Source: Rhizobium sp. CB3090
GTDB lineage: Bacteria; Pseudomonadota; Alphaproteobacteria; Rhizobiales; Rhizobiaceae
Length of the DNA stretch: 64,000 nt
Assembly (NCBI RefSeq): GCF_029714285.1
Contig: NZ_CP121662.1
Span: 1,860,001 to 1,924,000 of the forward strand
Direction of reading: 5' to 3'
The position numbers were made by a program, and so were the translations under genes. Positions 31,444 through 35,878 of the stretch are shown here, in pieces; positions within the stretch are counted from its first letter, which is position 1, and each line of letters opens with the position of its first letter. Under the pieces are notes generated by a model. That model saw only the letters and a list, made by a program, of their open reading frames with translations. It was not told the origin of the DNA and did no database searches.

Positions 31444-32388
31444 CTATTTCGCGGGCGGTGTCGTCGACGGCGCAGCCAGCGCCGGCGCACCTGCCGCAGG
31501 AGCAGAACCAACGGAGCTGTCGAAATACTTGAAGAATTCCGACTGGTTCGGCGGCAGGACCAGCGTCTTGCCGCCTGAAGCGAGCGCCGTGCGATAGGCG
31601 GCCAACGAGCGATAGAATTCGTAGAAGCTCGGATCGCGCGCGGAGGCGTCGGCAAAGATGCCGTTGCGCTCGGCTTCGCCCTGACCGCGCAGGACCTCCG
31701 AGTCCTTCTGTGCATCCGCCACGATCTCGACGACCTGACGATCGGCAACGGCGCGGCGGCGCTGACCTTCTGTGTTACCTCGGGCGCGGATCAGCTCGGC
31801 TTCCGCCAGACGCTCGGCCTTCATACGGTCATAGGTCTGCTGCGACACTTCCTGGGTTAGGTCGGTGCGGCGGATACGAACATCCTCGATATTCAGGCCG
31901 AGGGTCTCGGCATCGCGGTGCAGATCGTCACGCACTTCCGTCATCATCGAAGCGCGCTCGTTGGATAGCGCAGCTTCGAAACCACGCAGACCGTAGACTC
32001 GACGCAGCGACGCATCGAGGCGGGTCCTGAGGCGCGATTCTGCCGCATCGCGATCACCTGACACCGTCTCCCGGAATTTCCGCGCGTCGGTGATCCGGTA
32101 GACGACAAAAGCATCGACCTCATAGAACTTGCCGCCCGAGACCTGGACACGGATATTGTCGAGATCGAAGCGCAGCTCTTGATCCTGGATATATTGCACC
32201 CGATCGGCATCCATGAAGGCAAAGGGCAGCTTGAAGTAGAGACCCGGCTCCGTCTTCACGGCACGGATCTGGCCGAAGCGCAGAACGATTGCCTGTTCGC
32301 GGGCATTGACCACGAAAATGGAGGAATAAACGATCAGCAGCAGCACCGCTATCGCGATGAGAATGGTTGGCAAACGGCTGGACGTCAT
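31444..32388 (-). CDS. hflC: HflC, SPFH-domain modulator of FtsH protease
   Basis: A 314-residue inner-membrane protein with one N-terminal helix (ILIAIAVLLLIVYSSIFVVNARE) and a periplasmic SPFH/band-7 domain (VQVSGGKFYEVDAFVVYRITDARKFRETV). With HflK it forms a large cage around the FtsH protease and modulates its activity. The C-terminus is a Pro/Ala-rich tail. Its start overlaps the last codon of hflK by one base, as typical for hflKC pairs. Confidence 0.96.
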   Translation of the reverse strand: MTSSRLPTILIAIAVLLLIVYSSIFVVNAREQAIVLRFGQIRAVKTEPGLYFKLPFAFMDADRVQYIQDQELRFDLDNIRVQVSGGKFYEVDAFVVYRITDARKFRETVSGDRDAAESRLRTRLDASLRRVYGLRGFEAALSNERASMMTEVRDDLHRDAETLGLNIEDVRIRRTDLTQEVSQQTYDRMKAERLAEAELIRARGNTEGQRRRAVADRQVVEIVADAQKDSEVLRGQGEAERNGIFADASARDPSFYEFYRSLAAYRTALASGGKTLVLPPNQSEFFKYFDSSVGSAPAAGAPALAAPSTTPPAK

Positions 32389-33515
32389 TATTTGGCCTCC
32401 GGCTGAGGTGCGGCCGCGGGCTTGGCCGGCGGGGTCGTCGTGGACTGCTTGCCGAGGTCGTTCAGCGGCAGGTAGGGCACGACGCCCTGCTTGTCGTCGA
32501 TGATAATGCTGTTCGAATTGCCGATAACCGACTCCATGGTTTCGAGGAACAGCCGCTTGCGGGTCACTTCCGGCGCCTTCACGTATTCGTCATAGATGGA
32601 GATGAAGCGCTGCGCCTCGCCCTGGGCTTCCTTGACGACACGGCTCTTGTAGGCAGCCGCCTCTTCGCGGATCTGGGCCGCGCGGCCGCGAGCCTGACCG
32701 AGCCGCTGGTTGGCGTATTGATTGGCCTCCTGCACCTGCTGATCTTCGTTCTGCTCGGCGCGCTGCACTTCATCGAACGCATCGGCCACTTCACGCGGCG
32801 GCGACGCATCTTCGATCGGCACGGCATTGATGGAAATGCCCGAACCGTAACGATCCATCGTGTCCTGAATGATGTTTCTCACCTCGATCGCAATTTCCTG
32901 ACGATTGTCGCGATAGATATCCTGGGCTGGACGGCGGCCCACCACCTCGCGCATGGCGCTTTCGGCAACCTGCTGCAGCGTCTCGTCGGGAGTTTCGAGA
33001 TTGAAGAGATAAGATTGCGGATTGGTGATGGTGTAGAGCACCGAGAACTGCACGTTGACGATGTTCTGATCGCCCGTCAGCATCAGGCCGGCATTCGAAC
33101 CCGAGCTCGAACGGCCGCCGATATTGCGCTGCTGTTCGGTCACCTTGACGATCTCGACACGATCCATCGGCCAGAAATGGAAATGCAGGCCAGGCATGGA
33201 CACTTCGGCGCGCGGCCGGCCGAAACGCAATTCGACGCCGCGCTCGTCCGGCTGAACCGTATAGACGCACTGGATGAGCCAGAAAATGACGATGATCGCC
33301 GCAACGATGACGAAGGCGCCGCCATTGAAGCCGCCGGGCACAAGCCCCTTCAACCGGTCCTGACCACGGCGAATGATGTCTTCAAGATCGGGCGGCCCAC
33401 CGCTGCCGCTTCCCCGCGGCCGGTTCGGTCCCTGCCCCCAAGGCCCCTGATTATTTCCGCCGCCGCCACCGCCGCCCCACGGGCCGCCGCCGCCATTCTG
33501 ATTGCTCCAGGGCAT
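32388..33515 (-). CDS. hflK: HflK, SPFH-domain modulator of FtsH protease
   Basis: A 375-residue partner of HflC. The N-terminus is the usual Gly/Pro/Asn-rich cytoplasmic tail (PWSNQNGGGGPWGGGG), followed by a membrane helix (GGAFVIVAAIIVIFWLIQCVYTV) and an SPFH domain (DERGVELRFGRPRAEVSMPGLHFH, MLTGDQNIVNVQFSVLYTI). The in-frame ORF continues to 33617, but the Met at 33515 is right before the HflK N-terminus. It follows folA with a 160-base gap on the same strand. Confidence 0.96.
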   Translation of the reverse strand: MPWSNQNGGGGPWGGGGGGGNNQGPWGQGPNRPRGSGSGGPPDLEDIIRRGQDRLKGLVPGGFNGGAFVIVAAIIVIFWLIQCVYTVQPDERGVELRFGRPRAEVSMPGLHFHFWPMDRVEIVKVTEQQRNIGGRSSSGSNAGLMLTGDQNIVNVQFSVLYTITNPQSYLFNLETPDETLQQVAESAMREVVGRRPAQDIYRDNRQEIAIEVRNIIQDTMDRYGSGISINAVPIEDASPPREVADAFDEVQRAEQNEDQQVQEANQYANQRLGQARGRAAQIREEAAAYKSRVVKEAQGEAQRFISIYDEYVKAPEVTRKRLFLETMESVIGNSNSIIIDDKQGVVPYLPLNDLGKQSTTTPPAKPAAAPQPEAK

Positions 33516-33676: not shown

Positions 33677-34222
33677 TTATGCTTTGCGCCTGAAATAACT
33701 GACAAAGCGCGTCGGATATGTGTCCTTTTCGCCAGCCGGTACGGCAAGCTCGCTTTCGACCTGCCAGAGAGCCGGATCGACGGTGGGAAAGGATGTGTCG
33801 CCCTCCACATCGGCCTCAACATGGGTGATCAACAAGCGGTCCGACAGGTTGATCGCCTGCCGGTAGATCTCACCGCCACCAATGACACAGATCTCATCGA
33901 CGCCACTCTCCGCAGCAAGACGGCGCGCGACATCGATGGCTTCGCTGAGCGAATGCACCGTCTTTACAGCCTCAGCGGAAAAGGCGGGATCGCGACTGAT
34001 GACGACATTTGGCCGGCCCGGCAATGGCTTGCCGATCGACTGGAACGTCTTGCGCCCCATGATGACCGGTTTGCCGAGCGTCATCGCCTTGAACCGCTTG
34101 AGATCGGACGACAGCCGCCACGGCATATCCCCGTCGCGGCCGATGATACCGTTACGCGAGACGGCAACGATGATAACGACATCTTCCGCAGGAAAAGAAT
34201 CTGCGCGTTCGCGGCGGATCAT
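33677..34222 (-). CDS. folA: Dihydrofolate reductase
   Basis: A 181-residue DHFR that keeps the tetrahydrofolate pool reduced after thymidylate synthesis. Motifs: VIIVAVSRNGIIGRDGDMPWRLSSDLKRFK (substrate and NADPH sites, catalytic Asp in DMPWRL), VIMGRKTFQSIGKPLPGRPNVVISR, and ICVIGGGEIYRQAI. The Met at 34222 is the family start; upstream in-frame sequence to 34381 is antisense to nothing and looks like read-through of the TIR gene in another frame. The ATG forms ATGA with a TGA in the alternative frame of the TIR gene. Confidence 0.96.
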   Translation of the reverse strand: MIRRERADSFPAEDVVIIVAVSRNGIIGRDGDMPWRLSSDLKRFKAMTLGKPVIMGRKTFQSIGKPLPGRPNVVISRDPAFSAEAVKTVHSLSEAIDVARRLAAESGVDEICVIGGGEIYRQAINLSDRLLITHVEADVEGDTSFPTVDPALWQVESELAVPAGEKDTYPTRFVSYFRRKA

Positions 34223-34226
34223 CGTA

Positions 34227-35087
34227 CTACGTCCTTCCACCTGGAATACAAAACTCCGAGCTTTGGTAACTCCTCCCAGGCATCGTCCGCATCGGCCGAG
34301 CCCGAAGGAATGACGAAATCGCATAAAAAGGCCAAAAAGAACGGACCGCATCTCCGAAAATAGCGCGAACCTTCGTCTCATCCAAGGTTCCAGCTAAAAT
34401 ACGATCCGATAAACTCTCAAGAAACGCGTAGATCTTTGTGATCGCGGGCACAGCCGCCTGAAATTCATCGCTCCGCGGATCGCTATCAATGTTGCGAACT
34501 TTCGCTCTTGCGGCGCTCATCTCCGGTGCTTCCCAAAGCTGAAGATAATCGTTCAATGTCGCCTGCGAAAAAATACCATCGTGGCCCGCACCCGATGTTG
34601 GCCGCAATTTTTCCTCGGCCTCAGCCGAACGCATGGCGGCGCGTATCTTGTTACTGGCGGCACCCACCGCGGCAACCAGGAGGCCGTCACTTCGATTGCT
34701 GTTATAAGTCAGGGGCGTAACGCCAAGCAAATCGGTGGGCAGACGAAAATTTTCGGCATGTCGAGGCAGAATGAAGAAACATCTGCTAAGGCCAAGTTTT
34801 CCAATGAAAAGCCCTAGCTCAAAAATAACATTGTCACGGACGGCTGAAAATTTTTGCCCTCGCATCTCCAGGAGGTCGTCTGCCGTGAAGACGAAAATCG
34901 CGAAATCATATTCGCTCAAAGATGACATCAACCGCGACAAGGTGAGACTGCTTGGCGCAAAGATACCTTGGTTCCAGACGGTAACCTCCGCCTCATAATC
35001 AAGATTTTCTTGAAGGGCATATGCGACTGGGAGCCCTTCGGTAGACGAACCTATAAATATCCTCGGCTGAGCCGCGATGGGCGTCAT
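34227..35087 (-). CDS. TIR-domain (CAP12/Pycsar-type) NADase-like protein with helical C-terminal domain; 3' end probably frameshifted
   Basis: A 286-residue gene wedged between thyA and folA. Residues 8-130 match the TIR-like nucleotide-hydrolase family of CAP12/Pycsar effectors (PF10137): [39 protein letters not shown], and [16 protein letters not shown] with the likely catalytic Glu90. Residues 173-250 form a helical region ([33 protein letters not shown]) resembling DUF4760-type domains. The ATG overlaps the thyA stop (ATGA). After residue 250 the frame turns unconvincing ([14 protein letters not shown]), while the frame reached by a -1 shift in one of two T5 runs (34325-34329, 34334-34338) reads [20 protein letters not shown] and stops at 34219, again ATGA with folA. 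Lower GC than its neighbours; likely acquired. In known systems such domains deplete NAD+ on phage infection; this one has no cyclase partner in the window. Confidence 0.85.
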
Positions 35088-35878
35088 TTCGCCACCGGCG
35101 CCTTGATATGCGCATCCGCCTCATAGCCTTCCAACGTGAAATCCTCGAACTTGAAATCGAAGATGTTCTTCACCCCCGGATTAAGGCGCATGGTCGGCAG
35201 TTTTTTCGGACTGCGGGTCAGTTGCAGCCTGGCCTGCTCGAAATGGTCGGAATAAATGTGCGTGTCACCCAGCGTATGCACGAAGTCGCCGGGCTTCAGC
35301 CCCGTCACCTGCGCCACCATCAACGTCAGCAGCGCGTAGGAGGCGATGTTGAAGGGCACGCCGAGGAAAGTATCGCCCGAGCGCTGGTAGAGCTGGCAGG
35401 AAAGCCTGCCGTCGGCGACGTAGAACTGGAAGAGGCAATGGCACGGCGGCAGCGCCATCTCGTCCACCTCAGCCGGATTCCAGGCCGAAACGATATGGCG
35501 GCGGGAATTCGGATTGGTCTTCAGCCCTTCGATCAGATTGGCGATCTGGTCGATATGGCCGCCGTCCGGAGCCGGCCAGGAACGCCATTGATGGCCGTAA
35601 ACCGGGCCGAGGTCGCCGTTTTCATCGGCCCACTCATCCCAGATCGAAACGCCGTTTTCCTTAAGATAGCGAATATTCGTCTCGCCCTTCAGGAACCACA
35701 GCAGTTCATGGATGATCGAGCGCAGATGCAGCTTCTTGGTGGTGAGCACCGGAAAACCCTCGGAAAGGTCAAAGCGCATCTGGTAGCCGAACACCGAGCG
35801 CGTGCCTTTGCCGGTGCGGTCGCCACGGTCGATGCCGGTGTCCATCACATGCTTCAAGAGATCGAGATATTGCTTCAT
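35084..35878 (-). CDS. thyA: Thymidylate synthase
   Basis: ThyA methylates dUMP to dTMP using methylene-tetrahydrofolate, producing dihydrofolate that FolA reduces, hence the operon. 264 residues, the E. coli length. Motifs: [23 protein letters not shown] at the start, VYGHQWRSW, the catalytic cysteine in [12 protein letters not shown], and [21 protein letters not shown]. The ORF runs upstream to 36160 but the family start is the Met at 35878. Its stop overlaps the TIR gene start by ATGA. Confidence 0.97.

Follow-up and report, generated by a model that had tools for sequence, protein, structure and literature searches.

The genome of Rhizobium sp. CB3090 carries, between thyA and folA, a gene for a TIR-domain protein, and on balance we lean towards the view that it belongs to a rare family of TIR effectors, each encoded by a single gene, that is tied to thymidylate synthesis and has to date been seen nowhere but at this position. 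Four genomes yielded this two-domain protein, in each case at the same junction and with its start codon overlapping the stop codon of thyA in the same way. Taken together, the evidence favours a TIR effector, which probably acts by abortive infection, over a random passenger.

Position and neighbours of the TIR gene

The window (the whole 64 000 nt stretch of DNA that was analysed) contains the following features, with the source of each assignment in parentheses.

31444..32388, minus strand: hflC (Pfam)
32388..33515, minus strand: hflK, next in the operon (Pfam)
33677..34225, minus strand: folA, dihydrofolate reductase (Pfam)
34227..35087, minus strand: TIR gene, ORF of 286 aa, stop codon included in the coordinates (ORF list, Pfam, translation)
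34230..34313, minus strand: last 28 codons of the TIR ORF, shifted out of the homologues' frame (frame comparison, profile)
34314..34565, minus strand: helical C-terminal domain, residues 175–258, in the TIR frame, four predicted helices (structure prediction, profile match)
34701..35063, minus strand: TIR domain, residues 9–129, PF10137 (Pfam)
34818–34820, minus strand: putative catalytic Glu90 (alignment with SfSTING)
35084..35087, minus strand: ATGA, TIR start codon overlapping the thyA stop codon (sequence)
35084..35878, minus strand: thyA, thymidylate synthase, 264 aa (ORF list, Pfam)
35087–35089, minus strand: Lys codon, last residue of ThyA (sequence)

A preliminary description of this locus had ended the TIR gene at 34219, which is 8 bases past its stop codon; the ORF in fact occupies 34227–35087. 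It had correctly placed the start inside the thyA stop codon, where the ATG of the TIR gene overlaps the thyA TGA, and the low GC content that it reported was likewise borne out (51.8 % vs 59.7 % for the whole window). With respect to the housekeeping neighbours that it had listed, thyA, folA, hflK and hflC were confirmed by Pfam, whilst degP, serB and miaA were judged from ORF translations only. As it had also stated, no cyclase was seen among the neighbours, five of which were assessed by Pfam and the others by eye from ORF translations, and by the same means no CD-NTase was found adjoining the gene. A search of the whole genome matched PF10137 to the TIR ORF alone. Elsewhere in this genome, contig C4 resembles repABC plasmids over its first 12 kb, mostly those from Rhizobium (251 of 489 records).

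The TIR domain and its putative active site

The TIR ORF matched PF10137 with an E-value of 4.6e-30 and a score of 104.5 bits, compared with a curated Pfam cut-off of 24.7, which puts its identity as a TIR well outside what chance would give. Its assignment to the CAP12/Pycsar type was further upheld by PADLOC models for a TIR effector (E-value 7.6e-47) and PycTIR (5e-35), as well as by solved Cap12 and PycTIR chains (E-values 6.7e-24, 1.1e-20, 5.1e-18 and 1.3e-7), with Cap12 as the best structure match. PF10137 was also matched by all four of the thyA-linked proteins considered below.

The active site of SfSTING, as given in the accessible part of its published account, consists of S10, R78, N80, E84 and D110 (PMC9402430). 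These residues align with S15, R84, N86, E90 and D119 of the TIR ORF, a correspondence for which we read the numbering of the solved chain as offset by 8, and R84, N86, E90 and D119 are invariant across nine aligned sequences. Glu90, previously put forward as the candidate catalytic residue, thus aligns with E84 of the SfSTING site so described. Judged by this homology, the domain is a TIR of the CAP12/Pycsar type with a conserved, putative NADase site.

A C-terminal helical domain, frame-shifted in this copy

From approximately residue 175 the protein continues into a small helical domain without a firm known family, modelled as four helices when folded alone from one sequence (pLDDT 82, moderate confidence). 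Two of the four family members matched DUF4760 (PF15956), at 15.6 and 13.7 bits against a cut-off of 25 and a best E-value of 0.018, and a profile comparison with three DUF4760 proteins returned a probability of 1.6 % (E-value 0.03); membership of DUF4760 was rejected on these grounds. A fold comparison against the PDB produced nothing that stood out, no STING family appeared among the Pfam and NCBIfam matches to a protein whose predicted C-terminal model is four helices of moderate confidence, and the open-access literature yielded nothing on DUF4760 together with a TIR domain.

A feature missed by the preliminary description is a frameshift towards the end of this copy. Relative to three homologues, the frame of the TIR ORF shifts near 34311–34320, and their conserved C-terminal tail is legible in another frame at 34234–34362. 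The C-terminal profile hits this genome in two pieces, model positions 1–88 in the ORF frame and 72–114 in the other. As the conserved tail sits in another frame, the last 28 residues of the ORF are unlike the family and, with the end of the helical domain so replaced, this genome's copy may be impaired, whether weakened, silenced or mis-assembled; either a mutation or a sequencing error may lie behind the shift. That we are looking at a dying pseudogene, a gene without present function in this genome, is a reading to which we give real but lesser credence. The displaced tail would agree with it, as would the lack of the TIR gene in the five nearest relatives by thyA. Nevertheless, the remaining frame is open and the active site intact, a sequencing error may account for the shift, and the family profile still recognises the displaced tail (E-value 8.4e-8), so that any damage would be recent.

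Distribution of the family and its fixed position

Within the genus, 13 of 148 genomes gave a match at an E-value of 1e-10, and the match was full length in three, namely this genome, G041 and G014. At the level of the family, 14 of 394 genomes matched at 1e-15, with a full-length match in this genome alone. Presence in all Rhizobiaceae as a housekeeping gene, which the preliminary description had named as evidence against its reading, is at odds with these counts. Profile searches found the C-terminal domain in none of the others of 247 family genomes and no other carrier of the full profile in 371 genomes of the class, absences that, like those behind the genus and family counts above, hold for searches of this kind, as only the best first-look candidates were scored. 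Among 397 genomes of the order, the C-terminal profile gave three other matches at an E-value of 0.01, of which one was real: G581 (3e-18), a member of another family whose genome is 84 % complete and whose protein is 42–43 % identical over its whole length. The sole other genome of that family examined, G617, was without the gene. Two candidate carriers of the C-terminal domain were rejected by eye, G602 (L129) as an antisense match of 27 residues beside membrane-protein-like ORFs and G809 (L130) as a coiled-coil-like stretch of a long ORF; weaker matches were seen at L019 (E-value 0.21) and L142 (0.81).

The two-domain protein is hence known from four genomes (this one, G041, G014 and G581), and each of them carries the gene between thyA and folA, joined to thyA by an identical AAATGA junction with its start/stop overlap. 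On the other side, the gene of G581 shares four bases with the likely folA start as well, the likely folA start of G041 follows 7 bases after the TIR gene, and that of G014 is ambiguous. The combination by which we propose to define the family (a TIR plus a helical domain, a place between thyA and folA, and an ATGA overlap) was found in all four carriers, with our own copy counted as a member though the end of its helical domain is out of frame. As a control, 63 other TIR places (88 loci) were inspected, including weak matches (10 loci, E-values 4.5e-9 to 3.9e-4), with 56 of the 63 flanked on each side by 1 kb or more; none had a thyA or folA match at an E-value of 1e-3 in its flanking DNA. 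The earlier suggestion that the gene is tied to the ThyA/FolA operon, rather than being a passive passenger, gains indirect support from this, because the same two-domain protein, junction and overlap recur in four of four carriers, down to 42 % identity and across two families, while the 63 other TIR places all lie elsewhere.

A home of the family on phages or plasmids was considered and rejected. No phage record matched the protein (E-value 1e-5) or its C-terminal domain (E-value 1), and none of the 33 plasmid records that matched the protein covered 80 % of it. Most of the best 20 of these 33 end near residue 170 or earlier and two, from Klebsiella, reach residue 215; in the one Klebsiella plasmid protein examined, neither Pfam nor the C-terminal profile found the C-terminal domain, which as a query of its own gave no plasmid match. 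Searches of viral contigs, one of which gave no match, brought up TIR relatives, none with the C-terminal domain at an E-value of 1. A scan of genome contigs with the whole protein, which reaches close relatives only and did not have the other carriers among its matches, returned one TIR relative, without the C-terminal domain.

The last residue of ThyA differs in carriers

ThyA ends in Val-Ala-Lys or Val-Ser-Lys in all four carriers, compared with Ile-Ala-Val in each of the 14 non-carriers read (18 loci in total, with four loci of split thyA left out). Among the 94 genus genomes with a full-length ThyA match, it was only in the three carriers that the match extended to residue 264. As the ATG overlap requires just an A as the last base of the codon, the overlap does not force the lysine. 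According to the accessible part of PMC6514825, residues 261–264 of Escherichia coli ThyA close over the active site. The change to lysine could matter for ThyA or for the effector.

Evolutionary history

In a TIR tree of 59 rows, from which ten short matches had been dropped beforehand, the four thyA-linked TIRs formed one clade, whose SH-aLRT support of 90 does not reach the 95 mark. Further PF10137-type TIR genes from the family (L031 in G187, L038 in G204, L042 in G293 and relatives) lay at sites other than thyA and branched in separate clades. An rpoB tree was made from 30 genus genomes (a quick tree of carriers, near relatives, genomes with odd junctions and others, hand-chosen from 148), and in it the three genus carriers occupied three separate clades; a single carrier clade was rejected (p-AU 1.5e-47), and three changes were required. 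Given these separate clades, independent gains of the gene at one and the same junction are probable. The two trees are alike in grouping G041 with G014, apart from this genome, a branching order with which vertical inheritance would also be compatible. All of this fits an old, diverse gene family acquired repeatedly at one junction, and the family is rare and probably horizontally spread. An ancestral gene lost many times over is less likely than repeated acquisition, since under vertical inheritance the Ile-Ala-Val tail seen in 14 of 14 non-carriers would need to return each time.

The composition of the gene sets it apart from its neighbours as foreign, with a GC3 of 0.53–0.60 vs 0.70–0.87 for thyA and folA, and between this genome and G041 third positions differ by 68 % in the TIR gene, 34 % in thyA and 54 % in folA. 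Over 255 aligned codons of the same pair, positions 1, 2 and 3 differ by 29, 16 and 68 %, and over the 86 codons of the C-terminal domain by 31, 16 and 70 %. Apart from its last 28 codons, the TIR gene, including its C-terminal domain, has been under purifying selection in the past, the strength of which is gauged only coarsely as synonymous divergence is saturated. When compared with the nearest relatives, homology stops in the last thyA codons and resumes at about codon 18 of folA, the first ∼17 codons of which are unlike those of near relatives.

Other contents of the thyA–folA junction

A survey of thyA–folA spacing, proposed in the preliminary description as a check, was carried out on 92 genus genomes, i.e. 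the 94 with this thyA type less G100 (no folA match) and G052 (folA on another contig); the other 54 had no full-length match to this thyA type. The gap was at most 60 bases in 73 genomes, 131–140 bases in 11 and more than 300 bases in eight, of which three are the TIR carriers and five hold unrelated inserts, named by eye from their translations. That the junction takes other inserts is a point that had previously been missed.

These other contents are varied. G167 (L051) and G016 (L049) share a similar 321 aa PAS-like protein just before folA, in G016 beside ∼8 kb of sugar-nucleotide-type genes; G166 has two unidentified ORFs at the junction; and a small lipoprotein-like ORF of 119–141 aa lies between thyA and folA in G030 (L052) and G035 (L053). 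The folA adjacent to thyA is replaced in G034 (L054), G159 (L055) and G100 (L067) by a divergent dihydrofolate reductase gene, whose 236–243 aa product is 34–41 % identical to the usual enzyme. Furthermore, inserted DNA splits thyA within codons 155–185 at L056 (G123), L064 (G149), L068 (G116) and L065 (G024), and likewise, by match coordinates, in G005, G022 and G186. A second thyA of 306–314 aa and 43–46 % identity directly follows the split gene at L056, L064 and L068, and L065 has the end of a second thyA-type gene (39 % identical). This looks like the work of mobile elements that target thyA and bring their own.

Because unrelated inserts occur at the junction, part of the recurrence could reflect a permissive site together with homologous recombination in thyA and folA. 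A TIR gene might thus have landed once at a permissive junction and moved since by recombination through its flanks, as a defence effector with an unrelated trigger that borrows the expression of the operon. The non-exclusive junction, with its other cargo, divergent folA genes and insertions inside thyA, supports such a history in part, as does the break in homology with near relatives in the last thyA and first folA codons. We nonetheless hold it to be rather unlikely, as the family was not found away from this junction, members as little as 42 % identical keep both the thyA overlap and the Lys tail, and the four TIRs form one clade whilst each of the 63 other TIR places lies elsewhere.

Possible function

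Returning to an effector wired to thymidylate synthesis, the protein is, by homology and context, most likely a TIR NADase that, once triggered, would bring growth to a stop; the helical domain would act as its regulator, and its synthesis would be tied to ThyA. The fixed place in the operon suggests a trigger linked to thymidylate or folate metabolism. Translation coupled to that of ThyA would ensure that effector and enzyme are made together, and the helical domain would keep the TIR off until a disturbance of thymidylate or folate metabolism, for which a phage would be the simplest cause; remodelling of thymidylate synthesis is common among phages. The freed TIR would then hydrolyse NAD+, and the loss of NAD+ would lead to a growth stop and abortive infection. 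Weighing against this reading are the number of members, only four and one of them (G581) from an 84 % complete genome, the unrelated cargo that the junction also takes, the fairly high divergence of folA itself between this genome and G041, and the frameshift in the present copy.

A more specific version, which we regard as doubtful, is that ThyA itself is guarded: the effector would share its message with a ThyA whose active-site lid ends in Lys, and its helical domain would bind that enzyme or sense the ThyA/FolA reaction, such that seizure, inhibition or replacement of the host's thymidylate synthesis by a phage would free the TIR to destroy NAD+. A deoxynucleotide N-glycosidase of the DNPH1/2'-deoxyribosyltransferase kind, cleaning the dUMP/dTMP pool beside ThyA rather than acting on NAD+, appears very improbable.

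Comparison with known systems

The thyA-linked protein resembles Cap12, the TIR-STING of CBASS, in its N-terminal PF10137 TIR, its best structure match and the active site as published in part for SfSTING, but differs in that no STING domain was found among its Pfam and NCBIfam matches and no cyclase among its neighbours. With PycTIR of Pycsar it shares a TIR of the same family; the domain order is reversed, however, and again no cyclase is among the neighbours. Its TIR, N-terminal and beginning at residue 6, matches positions 150–285 of the 288-position PADLOC PycTIR model and aligns with residues 156–284 of the solved PycTIR, in agreement with what we take to be the PycTIR order, an N-terminal cyclic-nucleotide part followed by the TIR. 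The NCBIfam Cap12 equivalogs, whose cut-off is 450 bits, scored 122 and 96 bits and covered no more than residues 7–134 and 9–137. As the equivalog cut-off is missed by far and the domain order is reversed, the protein is neither Cap12 nor PycTIR. DUF4760 proteins have a weak similarity to the C-terminal domain of two of the four members, under the cut-off.

No TIR effector linked to thymidylate synthesis is described in the open-access titles and abstract openings searched. The closest idea that we met is Clover (CloA/CloB), which, according to the accessible part of its description, defends the cell by monitoring its thymidine nucleotides and responds to dTTP (PMC12265719). The likeness lies in the concept of a defence tied to the thymidine nucleotide pool; Clover, as far as that part describes it, pairs a dGTPase with a nucleotidyltransferase and has neither a TIR nor a linkage to thyA (PMC12265719). 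It shows, within the same limits, that sensing of the dTTP pool is within the reach of bacteria (PMC12265719). An immune NADase so far found only in the thymidylate operon, together with an altered lid residue of ThyA, would, if true, be a direct and testable immune guard on a core metabolic enzyme.
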